This document shows, piece after piece, positions 11,832 to 19,287 of a stretch of 33,432 bases of DNA (its first letter is position 1; every line of letters begins with the position of its first letter). This DNA comes from Rikenellaceae bacterium. Lineage in GTDB: Bacteria > Bacteroidota > Bacteroidia > Bacteroidales > Rikenellaceae. Location of the stretch: contig JAUMXM010000023.1 in assembly GCA_030529085.1 (NCBI GenBank), positions 1 through 33,432 of the forward strand, read 5' to 3'. Under the pieces are notes generated by a model. The model saw only the letters and a program-made list of their open reading frames with translations, ran no database searches and had not been told where the DNA came from. The position numbers and the translations under genes were made by a program.

Positions 11832-11870
11832 GCGACCCCTCAGCCTTATTGGCTGAGGGGTCGCTTTTTT
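11832..11870 (+). terminator. Strong intrinsic terminator after uxuA
   Basis: GCGACCCCTCAGCC (11832-11845), loop TTATT and GGCTGAGGGGTCGC (11851-11864) form a perfect 14-bp stem followed by six Ts. The T-tract overlaps the -33 element of the next promoter. Confidence 0.93.
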
Positions 11871-11899
11871 GGTTTATAACAGAACTTTTTCTACCTTTG
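11868..11899 (+). promoter_or_regulatory. Promoter of the LPS-kinase-like gene
   Basis: TTTG (11868-11871), a 20-bp spacer and TACCTTTG (11892-11899) match the consensus. The start codon at 11905 is only six bases from the box, so the transcript would be leaderless or nearly so. Confidence 0.65.
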
Positions 11900-11904
11900 C
11901 CACG

Positions 11905-12657
11905 ATGAAACTCTATGTCAATGAATCGATGGCGAAATTTCGCCCCTTTATCGAGCAGCTGCCCGCGCTGTTCGACGAAGGTGATTTGATCTTCCAGGGA
12001 CGCAACACCATTCGTTCGTTCGTCGTCGAGGGCGAGCGTATTACCGTGAAACGCTTCCGCAAACCCTCGGGATTCAATGCCTTCTGTTATGGCCATCTGC
12101 GCAAGAGCAAAGCGCGACGTGCCTTTGAACACGCCACCGAGCTGGTGCGCCTCGGCATCCAGACGCCCGAGCCGATCGGCTATCGCGAGGATTACCACGG
12201 CATCTGGATTCGCGAGACCTACCTCATCACCCGCTTCTCGGACTATCGACCCATCTCGGAGATTACCAATCGCTTCCCGGCCGAGGGTACAGCCGAGGCG
12301 CTCGATGCCTTCGCAGCCTTCGTGGTTACGTTGCATCAGAAGGGTGTCCTGCATGGCGATTTCAACAACAGCAATACGCAGTGGAAGCGCGACGAAAAGG
12401 GAGATTATCGCTTCGAGCTGATCGACATCAACCGCATGCAGTTCCGAGGTCGCGAACTTACGCGCAAGGAGAGTCTCCACAACCTGCGTCGCATCACCTG
12501 CCAGCTTACGGCCTACAGCTACATCGCAGGGCGTTACGGCGAGTTGCGCGGTTGGGATAGCTACTACACCCAGTTGGCATGCGCCAAACGATTGAGCACA
12601 TTCATCGCCCAGCGCAATCGCCGCTATGCACTCAAGGCCTTTTTGCGCCGTCGATAA
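11905..12657 (+). CDS. Lipopolysaccharide core (Kdo/WaaP-type) kinase family protein
   Basis: This 250-residue protein has a small protein-kinase-like fold. Lys49 in ITVKRF is the beta-3 ATP-binding lysine. Glu76 is a candidate helix-C glutamate. HGDFNNSN (150-157) is the catalytic loop, with Asp152 as base and Asn155 or Asn157 as metal ligand. LIDINRM, with Asp174, replaces the DFG segment. These features place it in the Kdo-kinase/WaaP superfamily, which phosphorylates Kdo or heptose residues of the LPS inner core at the cytoplasmic face. The start at 11905 (MKLYVN) is preferred to 11869, which lies inside the upstream terminator. It is monocistronic. The substrate is inferred; a general small-molecule or protein kinase role cannot be excluded. 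Confidence 0.75.
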   Translation: MKLYVNESMAKFRPFIEQLPALFDEGDLIFQGRNTIRSFVVEGERITVKRFRKPSGFNAFCYGHLRKSKARRAFEHATELVRLGIQTPEPIGYREDYHGIWIRETYLITRFSDYRPISEITNRFPAEGTAEALDAFAAFVVTLHQKGVLHGDFNNSNTQWKRDEKGDYRFELIDINRMQFRGRELTRKESLHNLRRITCQLTAYSYIAGRYGELRGWDSYYTQLACAKRLSTFIAQRNRRYALKAFLRRR

Positions 12658-12699: not shown

Positions 12700-12729
12700 T
12701 TGGTTGATTCGATTTTTTGATTAAATTTG
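12700..12729 (+). promoter_or_regulatory. Promoter of the pheA attenuator and operon
   Basis: A TTGG-type -33 element (12700-12703) is followed by TAAATTTG (12722-12729). The predicted start is only a few bases before the leader-peptide ATGs at 12738 and 12741. Confidence 0.5.
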
Positions 12730-12737
12730 CTGTTGAA

Positions 12738-12818
12738 ATGATGAACTTTTTTGCATACGCATTTTTTTACTTCTTTTTTGGTACGGAGAAAAGGGGCGAG
12801 ATAGCGTGTGTATGCTAA
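12738..12818 (+). CDS. Phe-rich leader peptide of the pheA operon
   Basis: A 26-codon reading frame opens with two consecutive ATGs (12738, 12741). Within codons 3-14 it reads NFFAYAFFYFFF: seven Phe and two Tyr codons, including runs of two, two and three Phe. It then continues with GTEKRGEIACVC to a TAA at 12816-12818. The Phe codons occupy 12747-12752, 12762-12767 and 12771-12779. Sixty-odd bases downstream is a terminator hairpin, and 71 bases downstream is the pheA start. This is the same logic as enterobacterial pheL, whose leader also carries seven Phe codons. The peptide itself is unlikely to have a function other than being translated. Confidence 0.85.
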   Translation: MMNFFAYAFFYFFFGTEKRGEIACVC

Positions 12819-12850
12819 TAGAGGATATGTGAATCATAAATCCCGCTCCT
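12792..12850 (+). promoter_or_regulatory. Candidate antiterminator pairing of the pheA attenuator
   Basis: AGGGGCGAGA (12792-12801, 13 bases after the last Phe codon) can pair with TCCCGCTCCT (12841-12850), the left arm of the terminator. Nine of ten positions pair, counting one G-U. The two structures are mutually exclusive, as attenuation requires. The exact ribosome positions that favour each fold are inferred. Confidence 0.6.
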
Positions 12851-12875
12851 GCAACAAGCAAGAGTGGGATTTTTT
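12838..12875 (+). terminator. Attenuator terminator upstream of pheA
   Basis: AAATCCCGCTC (12838-12848), a 13-base loop and GAGTGGGATTT (12862-12872) form an 11-bp stem with one G-U pair. A run of six Ts (12870-12875) completes the signal, which ends 15 bases before the pheA ATG. Its place between promoter and gene marks it as a regulated rather than end-of-gene terminator. Confidence 0.85.
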
Positions 12876-12889
12876 AATAAAAAACGAAG

Positions 12890-13729
12890 ATGAAACAGGT
12901 AACCATACAGGGTATAGCGGGTTGTTTCCACGAGACGGCCGCCCATCGCTTCTTCGATCGCGACGAGATCGAGGTCATCGAGTGCGATACCTTTGCGGTG
13001 TTGTTCGATCGCTTGGCAGCCGATCCGGCTTTGCTGGGGGTAGCAGCCATCGAAAATACGATTGCCGGCTCGCTGTTGCAGAATCTGGAGTTGCTGCGCC
13101 AAAGCAACCTGAAGATTATCGGCGAGGAGAAGATTCGCATCTCACATGTGCTGTGCGCGCTGCCCGGTGAAAGCCTCGATACGATCGAGGAGGTGCGCTC
13201 GCACCCCATTGCGTTGATGCAGTGCGGTGATTTCCTGAAAAAACTCCCTGCGGCCCGCATTGTGGAGCGCGACGATACGGCCGGCTCGGCTCGCGAGATC
13301 CAGCAAGGTGGGTTGCGCCACACGGCCGCCATTTGTGGTGCCGATGCCGCCGCGATGTATGGCTTGGAGATCCTTGCCCCCGCCATCGAGACCAACCGTC
13401 ACAACTTCACCCGCTTTTTGGTGTTGGCCGATGAGTCGCAGGCCGAGGTCGATACCGCGCAGGCCAACAAAGCCTCGTTCCTCTTCACGTTGCCCCACAC
13501 ACAGGGGTCGCTCTCGAAGATTCTTACCGTCTTGTCGTTCTACGATATCAACCTGACGAAGATCCAGTCGATGCCCATTATCGGCCGCGAGTGGGAGTAT
13601 CGTTTCTATATCGATGTCACGTTCGACAACTACACCCGTTATCGCCAGTCGGTCGAGGCGGTGCGCCCCCTGACGAGCGACTTTACAATCTTGGGCGAGT
13701 ACCGCGAGTGCCCCAATCCCGAAATTTAA
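12890..13729 (+). CDS. pheA: Prephenate dehydratase with ACT domain
   Basis: This 279-residue monofunctional enzyme converts prephenate to phenylpyruvate, the committed step of phenylalanine synthesis. The catalytic domain (1-180) has AAIENTIAGSL near 52-62 and the essential TRF motif at 174-176 (HNFTRFLVL). Residues 196-275 form an ACT regulatory domain with the GSL turn (206-208). The Phe-binding motif that reads ESRP in enterobacterial PheA appears here as IQSMP (225-229), so feedback inhibition may be altered (inference). No chorismate mutase is fused to it; that activity lies on the next gene, 27 bases downstream. Expression appears to be controlled by the Phe-rich leader and attenuator at 12738-12875. 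Confidence 0.95.
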   Translation: MKQVTIQGIAGCFHETAAHRFFDRDEIEVIECDTFAVLFDRLAADPALLGVAAIENTIAGSLLQNLELLRQSNLKIIGEEKIRISHVLCALPGESLDTIEEVRSHPIALMQCGDFLKKLPAARIVERDDTAGSAREIQQGGLRHTAAICGADAAAMYGLEILAPAIETNRHNFTRFLVLADESQAEVDTAQANKASFLFTLPHTQGSLSKILTVLSFYDINLTKIQSMPIIGREWEYRFYIDVTFDNYTRYRQSVEAVRPLTSDFTILGEYRECPNPEI

Positions 13730-13756: not shown

Positions 13757-14818
13757 ATGAACGATTTACAACCTATATTGCTGCCCGATCTCGATCTTTC
13801 GCGTCCGCTGGTGATTGCAGGCCCCTGCAGTGCCGAAACTGAAGAGCAGGTGCTTGCCACCGCTCACTCGTTGGCCCGCCATGGTGTTCAGATCTTCCGT
13901 GCCGGTGTCTGGAAACCTCGTACCAAGCCGGGAGGCTTCGAAGGGGTAGGCGTGGAGGGCCTTGCCTGGCTGCAGCGCGTAAAGCAGGAGACGGGGATGT
14001 ATACCGCCACGGAGGTGGCTACGCGTGCCCATGTTGAGGCGGCTCTCGCTGCCGGTATCGACCTGCTCTGGATCGGTGCCCGCACGGCGGCTAACCCCTT
14101 TGCCATGCAGGAGGTGGCCGACGCCCTCAAGGGACACGACGTTCCGGTGCTGGTGAAGAACCCCGTGAGCCCCGACCTGGAGCTCTGGATCGGCGCCCTG
14201 GAGCGCATCTACAATGCCGGTATTCGCCGTTTGGGCGCTATTCATCGCGGCTTTACCTGGGTCGATAAGTCGATCTATCGCAACCACCCCTATTGGTCGA
14301 TTCCCATCGAGTTGCAGCGCCGTATTCCCAACCTGCCGATCTTCTCCGACCCGAGTCACATCGGTGGTAAGCGCGAGTTGATAGCCCCCCTTTCGCAGCA
14401 GGCGATGGATTTGGGCTTCGATGGTCTGATTATCGAGGCACACTGCAAGCCCGACGAGGCGTGGAGCGATAAGGCTCAGCAGGTGATGCCCGACACGCTT
14501 GCCTTTATTCTTAGTAACATCATAATCCGCGATATGAATACCACGACCGATAATTTGAACGAGCTGCGTCATGAGATTGATAAGCTCGATGATGAACTTT
14601 TGACCCTTTTGGCTCGCCGTATGCAGGTGGCCGACGAGATTGGCCGCTACAAGAAGGCGCACAATATGTCGGTGCTGCAGTCGCAGCGTTACGAGGAGAT
14701 TCTGGCACGCCGCGCCCGTCAGGCTGTGGAGCTGGGTATGGACCGCGAATTTATGCGTTCGGTGATGCAGGCCATCCACGAGGAGTCGATCCGCCACCAG
14801 CAGAAGGTGATCGGATAA
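13757..14818 (+). CDS. DAHP synthase / chorismate mutase fusion
   Basis: This 353-residue bifunctional protein carries both the entry and branch-point reactions of aromatic amino-acid synthesis. Residues 1 to about 255 are a type I-beta (KDO8P-synthase-like) 3-deoxy-7-phosphoheptulonate synthase. They include VIAGPCSAET (19-28), FRAGVWKPRTKP, the metal-binding IFSDPSHIGGKRE and GLIIEAHCKPD. Residues about 262-353 are an AroQ-type all-helical chorismate mutase: LRHEIDKLDDELLTLLARRM, then ADEIGRYKKAHN, QRYEEI and a long last helix. The fusion is common in Bacteroidetes. It shares an operon with pheA, so the chorismate mutase feeds prephenate to PheA. The usual companion tyrA (prephenate dehydrogenase) and aminotransferase genes of this operon are not next to it here. 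Confidence 0.95.
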   Translation: MNDLQPILLPDLDLSRPLVIAGPCSAETEEQVLATAHSLARHGVQIFRAGVWKPRTKPGGFEGVGVEGLAWLQRVKQETGMYTATEVATRAHVEAALAAGIDLLWIGARTAANPFAMQEVADALKGHDVPVLVKNPVSPDLELWIGALERIYNAGIRRLGAIHRGFTWVDKSIYRNHPYWSIPIELQRRIPNLPIFSDPSHIGGKRELIAPLSQQAMDLGFDGLIIEAHCKPDEAWSDKAQQVMPDTLAFILSNIIIRDMNTTTDNLNELRHEIDKLDDELLTLLARRMQVADEIGRYKKAHNMSVLQSQRYEEILARRARQAVELGMDREFMRSVMQAIHEESIRHQQKVIG

Positions 14819-15004: not shown

Positions 15005-15035
15005 GGCTTCAGCAGACAGCTGAAGCCTTTTTTTT
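15005..15035 (+). terminator. Intrinsic terminator after tRNA-Ser
   Basis: GGCTTCAGC, loop AGACA and GCTGAAGCC form a perfect 9-bp stem followed by eight Ts. The T-tract also begins a 15-bp inverted repeat: TTTTTTTGTGTATAG (15029-15043) is matched by CTATACACAAAAAAA (15073-15087). Confidence 0.88.
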
Positions 15036-15378: not shown

Positions 15379-15963
15379 ATGAGAAAGGCGATTATTTTAA
15401 GTAGAGTAAGTACCTTGCAGCGGGATCTAAGGCAACAGACAGAGGAGATTTTGCGGGAGGTATACAAAGATGGATACAAGAAGGAGGAGGTAATCGTAAT
15501 TGAGGATAAGGAGTCGGCCATTAAACTTTCCGAGGAGGAACGGCGTGGGCTGAACAAACTCAAAGAGCATATTCGTACCGATCCGACCATTACGGCGGTG
15601 TATATTTACGAACTATCGAGATTAAGCCGTAGGCAGTTGGTATTATTCAGCATTCGAGATTTTCTGATTGAGCACAACATCCAGCTCATTTGCCTAAAGC
15701 CCTATTTCAAACTGCTTGAACCCGATGGTAAAATGTCCCAAACGGGGTCACTGATGTTTTCGATCTTCTCTTCGATGTCTGAATCGGAGATGGCATTGGC
15801 CAAAGAGCGCATGATGAGAGGGCGAAAATTCAACATAGCGATGGGAAAATCGGGAGGAGGCAGAGCGCCATTCGGCTATACTAGAGATAAGGACAAGGGA
15901 TATGTAATCCAGCGTATTTTATTCCCTTTTTTTTCGTCCCACCCCGCTCAAAAGCGCGTGTAG
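15379..15963 (+). pseudogene. Truncated serine recombinase (resolvase/invertase family)
   Basis: The 194-codon frame begins MRKAIILSRVST, with Ser9 as the catalytic nucleophile. It retains the rest of the resolvase domain: YIYELSRLSRRQ, LMFSIFSSMSESEMALAKERMMRG and GGGRAPFGYTRDKDKGYVIQ (ending near 15914), which is the entry to the recombinase/zinc domain. The last dozen or so residues (RILFPFFSSHPAQKRV) are unrelated and run into non-coding DNA, so the DNA-binding C-terminal part, a few hundred residues in large serine recombinases, is missing. Base and codon use (ATA, TTA, AGA) are more A/T-rich than the neighbours, indicating transfer. It lies 400 bp from tRNA-Ser and is probably the scar of an excised or decayed mobile element. 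The catalytic domain alone is unlikely to recombine DNA. Confidence 0.8.
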
Positions 15964-16131: not shown

Positions 16132-19100
16132 ATGAAAAACAATTCTACGAATCATGCGTTCACGGCAGTAGTCCGCAAGCTCTCGTTTACGGTGTGCTTC
16201 CTGGCTCTCTCCGTGTTTGCATTCGCACAGCAGCGCGTCACCGGTACGGTTACCGACGCTGCGGGTGAACCGGTGATTGGTGCCAGTGTAGTCGTTGAAG
16301 GTACGACTACGGGTACGACGACCGGTGTGGACGGTCAGTACTCGCTCGCGGTACCTGCCAAATCTACGCTGGTCTTCTCGTTCCTGGGCTACAAGGAGGT
16401 GAAGGTCGAGGTGGCCGGCAAGACCTCGATTGATGTCACGATGGCCGAGGATGCGGCCGCGCTGGACGAGGTGGTGGTAATCGGTTACGGTACGGTAAAG
16501 AAGCGTGACCTGACGGGTGCCGTTTCGTCGGTGAAGTCGGATGTGGTGAAGCTCACCCCGTCGGCTAACCCGATGGAGTCGCTGCAGGGCCGCATCGCCG
16601 GTCTCGACATCACGAAGTCGAGCGGTCAGGCCGGTGCTGGCGTATCGATGCAGTTGCGTGGTAACCGTTCGATTTCGGAGGGTGGTAACCCGCTGATCCT
16701 GATCGATGGTATGCCGGGTGACTACTCGTCGCTGAACCCCAACGACATTGAGTCGATCGACGTACTGAAGGATGCTTCGGCTACGGCAGTTTACGGTTCG
16801 AGCGGTTCGAACGGTGTGATCATCATCACCACCAAGAAGGGTAAGGCTGGCAAGCTCAACGTGAACTTCGATGCTTACGTTGGTATCAGCGACTGGTCGG
16901 TTCTTCCCAAATCGACCCCCGAGCACTACGTTTCGACGGTTATCGAGGCTCAGACCTGGGCAGGTACCTATGATGAGTCACAGGACGTGCTTAACGAAGC
17001 AATGCGTGAGGCTTATGACAAGGGTAATGTGATTGATTGGGCCGATGCCATCCTGAATACGGGTGTTACGCAGAATTACTCGGTGTCGGTATCGGGCGGT
17101 AACGACCGCACGCAGGCCTACTTCTCGGCCAACTACTCGGAGGAGCAGGGTCAGTACAAGCGTGACAACTACAAGCTCTACTCGTCGATGATCCGCCTGA
17201 ACCACAATGTAAATAAGTGGCTCTCGGCCGGTATCCACACACAGTTGGCTTATTCGGACAAGGAGAGCTCGTACTCGAAGCTCGAGCAGGCTATGCGTGC
17301 TAACCCGTTTGGTCAGCTCTATAAGGAGGATGGTTCGGTGAACGAGTATCCGGTTATCGACGACAACCGTCAGGTGAACCTGTTGCTCAACGAGAATCGC
17401 GACGCTTATCGTCGTCCTTCGCACAACTTTAAGCTCTACTTCCAGCCCTATGTGAAGATCACGCCACTGAAGGGTATGACCATCGAGTCGCGTCTGAGTG
17501 CTGCTTTGAACTACCGCAACTCGAAGTCGTGGGTAGGTTACGGTTCGTACCAGTTCTACGATCAGGCCGGTACGGGTGCCGTAGGTCGTCCCAACTCGGA
17601 GCTTGCTAACTACACCTCGGCTTCGATCTCGAACAGCCGTAGCTGGGGTTACACCTGGGAGAACATACTGACCTATAACTTCTCGATTGCCGATGATCAC
17701 GACTTCACGGTAACGGGTGTTACGACCTATTCGCATAGCCAGAACGAGTCGTCGAGCCAGTCGGCAACCGGTATTCTGTCGAATGTAGAGAAGTGGACCA
17801 ACATGGCCAAGGCTACCGGTACGAAGAACCTCAGCTCGGGCTACTCGATGGGTAAGTCGATGGGCTTCGTGGCTCGTTTGAACTACTCGTACCAGGGCAA
17901 GTACCTCTTCTCGGCTTCGGTACGTCACGACGGCAACTCGAAGCTCGCCAAGGGCAAGAAGTGGGATACGTTCCCCGCTGTTTCGGCCGGTTGGCGTATT
18001 TCGGAGGAGAAGTTCATGGATGGCACGAAGGGCTGGTTGGACAACCTGAAGCTGCGTGTCGGTTATGGTGAGACGGGTGCTGCCGGTATCGGTGCTTACT
18101 CGTCGTGGTCGATCCTGCAGCAGGGCCAGATGTCGCTCGGTGGTGTCTTGACGACCAACTACAACTTCCCGAACCCGATTACGAATGCCAATCTGACGTG
18201 GGAGCGCTCGAAGTCGACCAACATCGGTTTGGATGCTTCGTTCCTCAACAACCGCATCGAACTCTCGGCGGAGTACTATATTGTAAATACGGATGACGTT
18301 ATCTGGAACCTGACGCTTCCCGTAAACAACGGTGGTCAGAACGCTTCGACCTACTTCACGACGACGGCTAACATGGCCAAGACGCAGAACAAGGGTGTCG
18401 AGATGACGCTGACGACGCGCAACATCGTCAAGAAGGACTTCCAGTGGACCTCGACCATCACCTTCGCCAAGAACAAGGAGCAGGTGAAGGCCTTGGGTGA
18501 GGGTGCTGCCGAGTTCGTACAGCAGGATTCGCGCGACGAGAAGTCGTACACGCTGCATGTAGGCGATCCCGTGAAGTCGTACTGGCACTATAAGCTCGAC
18601 GGCGTATGGCAGAAGGGCGAGGAGGCAGATGCTGCCGCCTTTGGTAAGATTCCGGGTGACCTGAAGGTAAATGTTCCGGGCATGGAGAAAGTTTCGGACG
18701 GTGTATGGAAGAAGGGCTATGAGCAGGAGGACGGCACGATAGCTTACAACGAGTACACGGCTGAGAATCCCTACACGGTATCGGCTGACGACAAGCAGAT
18801 GATCGGTCACGCTTCGCCCGATTGGTCGTTCGGTTTCCAGAATACCTTTACCTATAAGTGGTTCGACCTTTCGATCTACATGTATGGTCGCTTCGGTCAG
18901 ATGATGTACTACGATCCGCTCGTATGGTACTCGTCGAGCGGTGGTAACTTCCCCGACTACTACAACTACTGGACGCCCGAGAACCCCTCGAACGATTTCC
19001 CGTCGCTGAACTCGTCGCGCAACTGGAAGGACGACTCGTACTACACGGCTCGCGCATTCGTCGATGGTTCGTTCTTCAAGATCAAGAACATCACGCTGGG

Positions 19101-19287
19101 TTACACGCTGGGCAAGAAGGCCGCTTCGAAGATCGGTATTCAGCGCTTCCGTGTATACGCTACGATCACCAACCCGCTGGTAGTTGCCAAGAGCCACCTC
19201 GTTCAGGATTACGATCCCGAGATGGCCGGTTCGCTCGACTTCCCGCTCACGAAGCAGGTGGTATTTGGTGTTAATCTCTCGTTCTAA
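16132..19287 (+). CDS. SusC/RagA-family TonB-linked outer-membrane transporter
   Basis: This 1051-residue protein carries oligosaccharides or peptides across the outer membrane using TonB energy. A signal peptide covers about 1-33, ending SVFAFAQ. A carboxypeptidase-regulatory-like domain (about 35-115: VTGTVTDAAGEPVIGASV, then the FSFLGYKEV strand) precedes the TonB-box-like LDEVVVIGYGTVKKRDLTGA, the hallmark of SusC proteins. A plug domain (about 130-235, including ESLQGRIAGLDI, LILIDGMPGD and NDIESIDVLKDASATAVYGS) and a long beta-barrel ending in the aromatic FGVNLSF follow. There is no N-terminal STN domain, so it is unlikely to signal through an anti-sigma factor. It is the first gene of a susC-susD-plug unit. 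The substrate is unknown. Start chosen at the ATG before KNNSTN, giving a proper signal peptide. Confidence 0.95.
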   Translation: MKNNSTNHAFTAVVRKLSFTVCFLALSVFAFAQQRVTGTVTDAAGEPVIGASVVVEGTTTGTTTGVDGQYSLAVPAKSTLVFSFLGYKEVKVEVAGKTSIDVTMAEDAAALDEVVVIGYGTVKKRDLTGAVSSVKSDVVKLTPSANPMESLQGRIAGLDITKSSGQAGAGVSMQLRGNRSISEGGNPLILIDGMPGDYSSLNPNDIESIDVLKDASATAVYGSSGSNGVIIITTKKGKAGKLNVNFDAYVGISDWSVLPKSTPEHYVSTVIEAQTWAGTYDESQDVLNEAMREAYDKGNVIDWADAILNTGVTQNYSVSVSGGNDRTQAYFSANYSEEQGQYKRDNYKLYSSMIRLNHNVNKWLSAGIHTQLAYSDKESSYSKLEQAMRANPFGQLYKEDGSVNEYPVIDDNRQVNLLLNENRDAYRRPSHNFKLYFQPYVKITPLKGMTIESRLSAALNYRNSKSWVGYGSYQFYDQAGTGAVGRPNSELANYTSASISNSRSWGYTWENILTYNFSIADDHDFTVTGVTTYSHSQNESSSQSATGILSNVEKWTNMAKATGTKNLSSGYSMGKSMGFVARLNYSYQGKYLFSASVRHDGNSKLAKGKKWDTFPAVSAGWRISEEKFMDGTKGWLDNLKLRVGYGETGAAGIGAYSSWSILQQGQMSLGGVLTTNYNFPNPITNANLTWERSKSTNIGLDASFLNNRIELSAEYYIVNTDDVIWNLTLPVNNGGQNASTYFTTTANMAKTQNKGVEMTLTTRNIVKKDFQWTSTITFAKNKEQVKALGEGAAEFVQQDSRDEKSYTLHVGDPVKSYWHYKLDGVWQKGEEADAAAFGKIPGDLKVNVPGMEKVSDGVWKKGYEQEDGTIAYNEYTAENPYTVSADDKQMIGHASPDWSFGFQNTFTYKWFDLSIYMYGRFGQMMYYDPLVWYSSSGGNFPDYYNYWTPENPSNDFPSLNSSRNWKDDSYYTARAFVDGSFFKIKNITLGYTLGKKAASKIGIQRFRVYATITNPLVVAKSHLVQDYDPEMAGSLDFPLTKQVVFGVNLSF

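Follow-up and report, generated by a model that had tools for sequence, protein, structure and literature searches.

A putative phenylalanine/tyrosine attenuator upstream of pheA in a Rikenellaceae bacterium and its relatives among the Bacteroidia

Introduction

Enterobacterial pheL is a Phe-rich leader ORF accompanied by competing antiterminator and terminator structures, and phenylalanine is its sole regulatory amino acid. In the classical trp and phe attenuators, closure comes about through a ribosome that is held at, or released from, the stop codon of the leader, and attenuation of this sort needs a ribosome travelling close behind RNA polymerase. The subject has reportedly been treated in comparative studies of 2004 and 2010.

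Within the Bacteroidota, several published observations touch on the same theme. The Bacteroides thetaiotaomicron operon pheA>hisHb>aroA-aroQ>tyrA was credited in 2005 with a putative attenuator, taken from an attenuator database (PMC1173090, Table 7); this is very probably the device described below as it occurs in a relative, although the listing itself gives the operon and the prediction without leader peptide, codon content, mechanism, or distribution. Bacteroid-trp RNA (RF01692; PMC2864571) is likewise found in Bacteroidetes and is marked as cis-regulatory in Table 1 of its source, its link to trp being apparent from its name, but the DNA studied here has no match to it at gathering score. 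Short ORFs with notable Phe and Tyr content precede shikimate-metabolism genes elsewhere (PMC6429828, Fig. 6b), although these are two in number and come from a survey of five other genomes. Further, the authors of a Flavobacterium psychrophilum transcriptome see strong clues that leader peptides attenuate its amino-acid operons (PMC9723704), and the B. thetaiotaomicron transcriptome contains short ORFs in long 5' UTRs that are reminiscent of leader peptides (PMC7366714).

Here we analyze the region upstream of pheA in 33,432 nucleotides of a Rikenellaceae bacterium (the whole stretch is referred to as the window) together with the corresponding regions of its relatives. The mechanism proposed is the ordinary one of ribosome-mediated attenuation, and what appears to be new, as far as the literature was searched, is a described, class-wide family. 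No description of this attenuator family was found in that search, which covered largely non-subscription papers, and an earlier notice is possible. The points of interest suggested by the comparisons are dual Phe and Tyr codons that follow operon content, a fixed distance between codons and antiterminator with a freely placed stop codon, and units arranged in series.

Architecture of the pheA locus

The elements of the locus are collected in Table 1. An earlier note, made from the sequence of the window, had described a frame at 12738-12818 with seven Phe and two Tyr codons in twelve; the translation, MMNFFAYAFFYFFFGTEKRGEIACVC*, confirms it, the coordinates are right, and the aromatic residues lie within codons 4-15 (FFAYAFFYFFFG). 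The note had also placed an 11-bp terminator hairpin and a T-tract before the pheA ATG, and folding bears this out: the stem comprises 11 pairs, one mismatch, and 3 pairs, its run of six T ends 14 nt 5' of the start codon, and its energy of -20.4 kcal/mol (z -7.2) is equaled by none of 200 shuffles. The hairpin is absent from the plus-strand list of a simple promoter and terminator scan based on sigma-70 hexamers and was found by the folds, in which the stretch 12730-12889 as a whole folds far better than its shuffles (z -4.99).

Table 1. Features of the pheA locus, in window coordinates
Feature	Position	Strand	Basis or remark
Kdo/WaaP-family kinase gene	11869-12657	+	Upstream of the attenuator unit; profile match
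Promoter -7 box TAAATTTG	12722-12729	+	Exact match to Bacteroidota TAnnTTTG
Leader peptide ORF MMNFFAYAFFYFFFGTEKRGEIACVC	12738-12818	+	Open reading frame; alternative start at second ATG, 12741
Control codons FFAYAFFYFFF (region 1)	12747-12779	+	Leader translation and fold model
1:2 protector hairpin, control codons with remaining leader ORF; holds region 2	12753-12815	+	Fold
Region 2, 5' strand of antiterminator	12792-12802	+	Partner strand is 12840-12850; found at a comparable place in relatives and covarying
Region 3, common to antiterminator and terminator	12840-12850	+	Pairing, covariation
Intrinsic terminator hairpin (regions 3:4)	12838-12872	+	Fold; U-tract 12870-12875
pheA, prephenate dehydratase	12890-13729	+	PF00800, E 2.3e-49
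DAHP synthase/chorismate mutase fusion	13757-14818	+	PF00793 and PF01817; starts 27 nt past pheA stop
Possible end-of-operon terminator	15005-15027	+	Terminator-like site, then 8 T (scan)

Two further helices compete for this sequence. Regions 2 and 3 pair at 10 of 11 positions, with one G-U pair and one A.C mismatch, so that the competing pairing of 12792-12801 with 12841-12850 given in the earlier note is right and extends by one pair. The segment from 12780 to 12850 folds with -19.1 kcal/mol (z -1.94), its best fold containing seven of the 2:3 pairs, and the window's own 2:3 pairing reaches p 0.07 against shuffles of its linker. The 1:2 hairpin has -23.0 kcal/mol (z -3.67), with 1 of 200 shuffles as good. 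Helices 1:2 and 3:4 are compatible with each other and 2:3 excludes both, which is the classical order.

The operon includes the DAHP synthase/chorismate mutase fusion claimed by the note, as the two domain matches within its second gene attest. In the source genome, which is 85% complete, this DAHP synthase is the single PF00793 match, and an attenuator placed before the only such enzyme found would gate entry to the aromatic pathway. The operon is without tyrA, which lies on a separate contig (C72) behind an ORF with a resemblance to peptidase E; no aromatic leader was found around it in a stretch of 3447 nt. TrpE and HisG have no match in the same 85% complete genome. Between the pheA operon and the long ORF at 16132-19287, which we take to be SusC-like from its appearance, sits a 194-aa ORF (15379-15963), possibly truncated, whose N-terminal domain is that of a serine recombinase (PF00239). 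Among the best 80 of 219 loci, the closest PheA relatives of the window belong to Alistipes and Rikenellaceae, with at most 83% identity, and many are of animal-gut origin.

An Rfam search, which the earlier note had suggested, gave only a tRNA at gathering score in the whole window, and no riboswitch or T-box reached that score either there or in 20 related loci; a known element of either kind was accordingly rejected. The Phe_leader family of pheL-pheA (RF01859) aligns weakly and over its full length to 12747-12878 with 18.3 bits (E 0.88), but its gathering score is 55 and PyrR scores higher (21.6), and the window is therefore no member of it. The likeness to the enterobacterial system consists in a Phe-rich leader ORF, a competing antiterminator and terminator, and a prephenate dehydratase gene downstream; the differences are the additional Tyr codons, the DAHP synthase/chorismate mutase in the operon, and the Bacteroidota promoter box.

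Conservation of the unit in relatives

Relatives were drawn from widening taxonomic circles. A pheA match was present in 100 of 150 genomes of the family, of which 30 loci and 20 of the remaining 70 were used; the order contributed 50 of 51 further matching genomes (G155, with its match split in two pieces, was excluded), the class 20 of 44, mostly the more similar, and more distant members of the phylum 20 of 127, one per family label. Additional pheA relatives were the best 80 of 219 loci. The 20 more distant loci were considered separately; the 200 others gave 184 distinct upstream regions, and exclusion of five shorter than 200 nt left 179. The relatives are not independent, and counts across loci share their kinship. 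As a separate observation, a pheA match is absent in 50 of the 150 family genomes, and the 20 listed among these all belong to the window's genus and are 93-99% complete, so pheA looks patchy within that genus.

At least seven Phe or Tyr codons within 12 codons of an ORF occur in 154 of the 179 upstream regions. Of their reverse complements, 4 of 179 reach this density, as do 21 of 1790 dinucleotide shuffles, and these controls rule out a chance ORF. With a threshold of at least six, the count is 163 of 179 (controls: 16 of 179 reverse complements and 86 of 1790 shuffles); the 16 regions that fall below it count against the reading. The aromatic-codon frame is kept in relatives while the flanking sequence changes. 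All 20 loci from the rest of the class (L161-L180) have at least six aromatic codons and 18 have at least seven, whereas among the 20 more distant loci of the same phylum, with about 700 nt upstream inspected, a clear unit is seen in three (L209, L215, and L218) and is missing from 17, L207 having six aromatic codons and no good hairpin. Given this contrast, the device looks typical of Bacteroidia and their near kin. Plasmid records contain no match to the unit at E 1e-5.

The hairpin is as persistent as the frame. In the set of 164 loci with at least six aromatic codons and at least 130 nt upstream, every one has a terminator-like hairpin of -10 kcal/mol or better, which 4.1% of 492 shuffled stretches attain (13.6% reach -7 kcal/mol). 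Likewise, 140 of 163 loci have an exact TAnnTTTG no more than 60 nt from the leader ATG, as against 10 of 163 base-shuffled stretches. The earlier note had set promoter, leader peptide, antiterminator, and terminator in that order, and all of them do recur together in relatives, provided that the promoter is read as the Bacteroidota box.

In the window this box ends 8 nt before the leader ATG, or 11 nt before the second ATG, and the gap is similarly short (7-11 nt) in 19 loci, including the closest relatives of the window (L002-L007, L034, L036, and L037); the other 121 loci have gaps of 13-50 nt. Such short gaps suggest that the leader-peptide message is nearly leaderless in the window and its close relatives. 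About 3.7% of 5' UTRs in B. thetaiotaomicron are shorter than 10 nt (PMC7366714), and 5.5% of F. psychrophilum mRNAs are leaderless (PMC9723704).

Covariation and spacing of the competing helices

Region 2 was sought in 163 loci as the best complement of the terminator 5' arm anywhere in the linker between codon run and hairpin. The median complementarity score is 21 for a locus and its own partner, 15 when partners are swapped between loci, and 12.5 for shuffled linkers, and in 128 of the 163 the pairing reaches p<=0.05. At the second position past the CCC core, the 127 cells from 143 loci comprise 57 G-C, 28 C-G, 23 A-U, and 7 U-A pairs; region 2 was itself chosen by complementarity in this count, so only the variety of pairs is informative. 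In a structure-blind MAFFT alignment of 85 loci (loci up to L110), 74% of the cells are paired and 81 double changes are seen for helix 2:3, with 91% and 126 for helix 3:4, values that neither 200 shuffles nor six slid registers reach. By these comparisons, region 2 is conserved and covaries with the terminator 5' arm.

Although region 2 was free to lie anywhere in the linker, it starts 5-16 nt past the last aromatic codon in 127 of the 128 loci with a significant pairing (SD 2.5 over the 128), whereas the stop codon may lie as much as 19 nt ahead of the end of region 2 or as much as 26 nt beyond it, and in one locus 48 (SD 11.4). In these loci, the conserved distance is that from the codon run to region 2, not one from the stop codon.

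For helix 1:2 the evidence is of another kind. In 135 of 163 loci it shows more pairing than synonymous recodings do on average, and 36 loci are significant by themselves (p<=0.05), with a mean of 15.3 expected pairs in the real sequences and 13.2 in the recoded ones; the excess persists in 71 of 83 loci when one locus is taken per peptide cluster. In the structure-blind alignment of 85 loci, covariation of this helix is not above controls, perhaps because U-rich codons let the register slip, and the 1:2 helix is consequently the least certain part of the device. An outer stem of the form GCATAY/RTATGY fits several Bacteroidales by eye, but only 35 of 163 loci contain the two motifs together.

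The elements by which a leader-peptide attenuator would be recognized computationally are thus all found: an aromatic leader ORF, an intrinsic terminator, a conserved antiterminator, and the placement of control codons. The comparison that the earlier note had proposed, of relatives' upstream regions for conserved Phe codons and covarying stems, came out in its favor, with the frame in 154 of 179 regions and covariation in both 2:3 and 3:4. The recurrence of leader ORF, antiterminator, terminator, and promoter box with covarying stems supports the attenuator reading.

Which amino acids the leader would sense

Operon content was surveyed by tblastn with PDT, aminotransferase, DAHPS/CM, TyrA, AroB, and AroD queries, and 50 of 164 loci, in which the end of the operon lay outside the available stretch, were set aside. 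Five pheA genes stand alone (L070, L072, L123, L138, and L151), and their leaders have 6-9 Phe codons and 0, 0, 0, 1, and 0 Tyr codons, respectively; L070 and L072 have nearly the same leader (FRFFFFFAFFF) and are probably close kin, and their leaders look to us much like enterobacterial pheL. The 107 DAHPS/CM operons with a visible end have 1-6 Tyr codons (mean 4.0), and the mean share of Tyr, Y/(F+Y), is 0.45 in the 66 with tyrA and 0.40 in the 41 without. The operon of the window is without tyrA but makes prephenate, which feeds both branches, and this fits its seven Phe and two Tyr codons. There are exceptions: L012, of the same genus and among the 50 loci set aside, has a run without a Tyr codon though DAHPS/CM follows, and L128 has four Tyr codons where an aminotransferase and neither DAHPS/CM nor tyrA was detected.

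The link between Tyr codons and operon content supports a Phe/Tyr attenuator rather than one for Phe only. Consequently, the phenylalanine attenuator of the earlier note stands as an attenuator and gives way as to specificity, since most leaders carry both kinds of codon. In some lineages, Trp codons also occur in or beside the Phe/Tyr run (for example in L136, L154, L162, L168, and L172); aroB is present in the operons of L136 and L154.

Proposed mechanism and its alternatives

Taken together, the comparative and modeling results make us confident that the unit is a ribosome-mediated transcription attenuator that would sense charged tRNA-Phe and tRNA-Tyr and thereby control pheA and the DAHP synthase/chorismate mutase. 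We infer that transcription starts a few nucleotides past the -7 box, leaving the leader ORF almost leaderless. When Phe or Tyr is short, a ribosome would stall in the control codons and open the 1:2 hairpin; region 2, which starts 12 nt past the last control codon, would then be free to pair with region 3, the terminator would be blocked, and RNA polymerase would read into pheA. When both amino acids are plentiful, the ribosome would pass the run and cover region 2 within one or two codons, and where no ribosome is present the control codons themselves would pair with region 2. With region 2 occupied in either way, region 3 would pair with region 4 and transcription would presumably stop near 12875.

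This scheme was explored with a fold model in which the ribosome hides the 14 nt preceding the P site and 14 nt starting with the A site, with region 4 not yet made; it is an equilibrium calculation, not a kinetic one, and used 149 and 148 of the 163 loci (region 2 at p<=0.15). In the window, 2:3 forms whichever codon the A site occupies as far as the last Phe (0.63 of its 11 pairs); a single codon farther on it drops to 0.16, and from the codon after that until the last sense codon it is 0.00-0.01. Across 148 loci the modeled switch is open for a mean of 97% of the aromatic codons and closes one or two codons past the last of them in 126. The timing depends on the footprint: covering 10 nt downstream makes the window close later, and with 18 nt closing begins on the last Phe (0.24). 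Without a ribosome, 2:3 in the window is 0.00 and the control codons hold region 2. Averaged over 149 loci, the 2:3 fraction is 0.85 on aromatic codons, 0.12 at the stop codon, and 0.56 without a ribosome, the last value indicating that the 1:2 lock of the window is not general across loci in the model.

How the switch closes when amino acids are plentiful is the point on which a serious alternative exists. Closure might come, as in the classical attenuators, from a ribosome held at or released from the stop codon and not from the 1:2 hairpin, a version that we consider unlikely, though deserving of weight. Of 149 loci, 116 have a stop codon no more than 12 nt past region 2, and in these a ribosome placed there in the model leaves a mean 2:3 fraction of 0.00-0.01, just as this version would have it; yet the stop codon is scattered around region 2 as described above, and in the 33 loci where it lies farther away, the window included, the mean is 0.52. 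For the window itself the fraction is 0.62, 0.43, 0.03, and 0.12 with 14, 15, 16, and 17 nt covered upstream, so that in the model a ribosome parked at its own stop codon remains a weak spot of the attenuator reading. With 2:3 largely formed there, closure must come earlier, during passage of the ribosome over the codons that follow the run, or once it has been released. The earlier note had raised this very difficulty and had suggested timing or re-pairing of the T-rich codons. In the fold model, these codons do re-pair with region 2 once no ribosome is present, and coverage during the one or two codons past the run offers a second means of closure, but the parked ribosome still leaves 2:3 largely formed.

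Alternatives that dispense with the stalled ribosome fare worse. Regulation of the terminator through a metabolite, a protein, or a tRNA that binds to the leader RNA, with the ORF incidental, would draw on the fact that untranslated leaders are already split between the two structures in the model (the mean of 0.56 above). Against it, however, the aromatic frame is kept while its surroundings change, the distance from codons to region 2 is kept as well, Tyr codons are nearly absent before the five stand-alone pheA genes, and Rfam offers no riboswitch or T-box at gathering score for the window or the 20 related loci searched, which together render such regulation highly improbable. The hairpin does lie about 180 nt past the stop codon of the upstream kinase gene, on the same strand, but that it is merely the terminator of that gene, with a chance ORF beside it, is the least credible of all and already contradicted, as most of the Bacteroidia sampled keep the unit beside pheA and a promoter box precedes the leader.

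Returning to ribosome-mediated attenuation, a more far-reaching version can be offered tentatively, and we rate it as somewhat more doubtful than probable. Bacteroidia may use a modular attenuator for aromatic amino acids, a codon ruler for which the position of the stop codon is immaterial, in which the control codons double as the protector hairpin and closure occurs without a ribosome held at the stop; the message that carries the leader would be nearly leaderless in the window's clade, the mix of Phe and Tyr would be tuned to the enzymes behind it, and serial units behind one promoter in several lineages would sharpen the response. In any event, a mechanism is predicted by which many Bacteroidia may adjust Phe and Tyr synthesis. 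The phylum is described as lacking Shine-Dalgarno sequences (PMC9723704), and a conserved attenuator makes transcription-translation coupling directly testable there. Natural variants, such as Phe-only leaders before a lone pheA and units in tandem, are ready tests of specificity and of serial logic.

Apparent units in series

Among 174 loci with at least 400 nt upstream, 13 look like leader-terminator-leader-terminator (L077, L079, L085, L112, L127, L134, L139, L145, L146, L154, L159, L161, and L175). L042 was dropped as a tandem, since about 280 nt lie between the start of its first ORF and the hairpin assigned to that ORF. Region 2 reaches p<=0.05 in both units of seven of the 13 (L077, L079, L085, L112, L127, L154, and L175); it falls short of that level in the first unit (A) of L134 and L139, the second (B) of L146 and L161, and both units of L145 (0.055 in A) and L159. 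A published likeness is the Salmonella mgtCBR leader, in which two leader ORFs stand in series on one leader mRNA; its source regards it as a singular case of tandem attenuators that respond to different signals (PMC3641672). As presented there, mgtCBR responds to two different signals and its stem-loops are unlike intrinsic terminators, whereas here both units are aromatic and each has a terminator-like hairpin. An exact -7 box lies within 60 nt of eight of the 13 first units and of none of the 13 second units, and seven of the ten loci without a box in the promoter survey are in fact second units of tandems.
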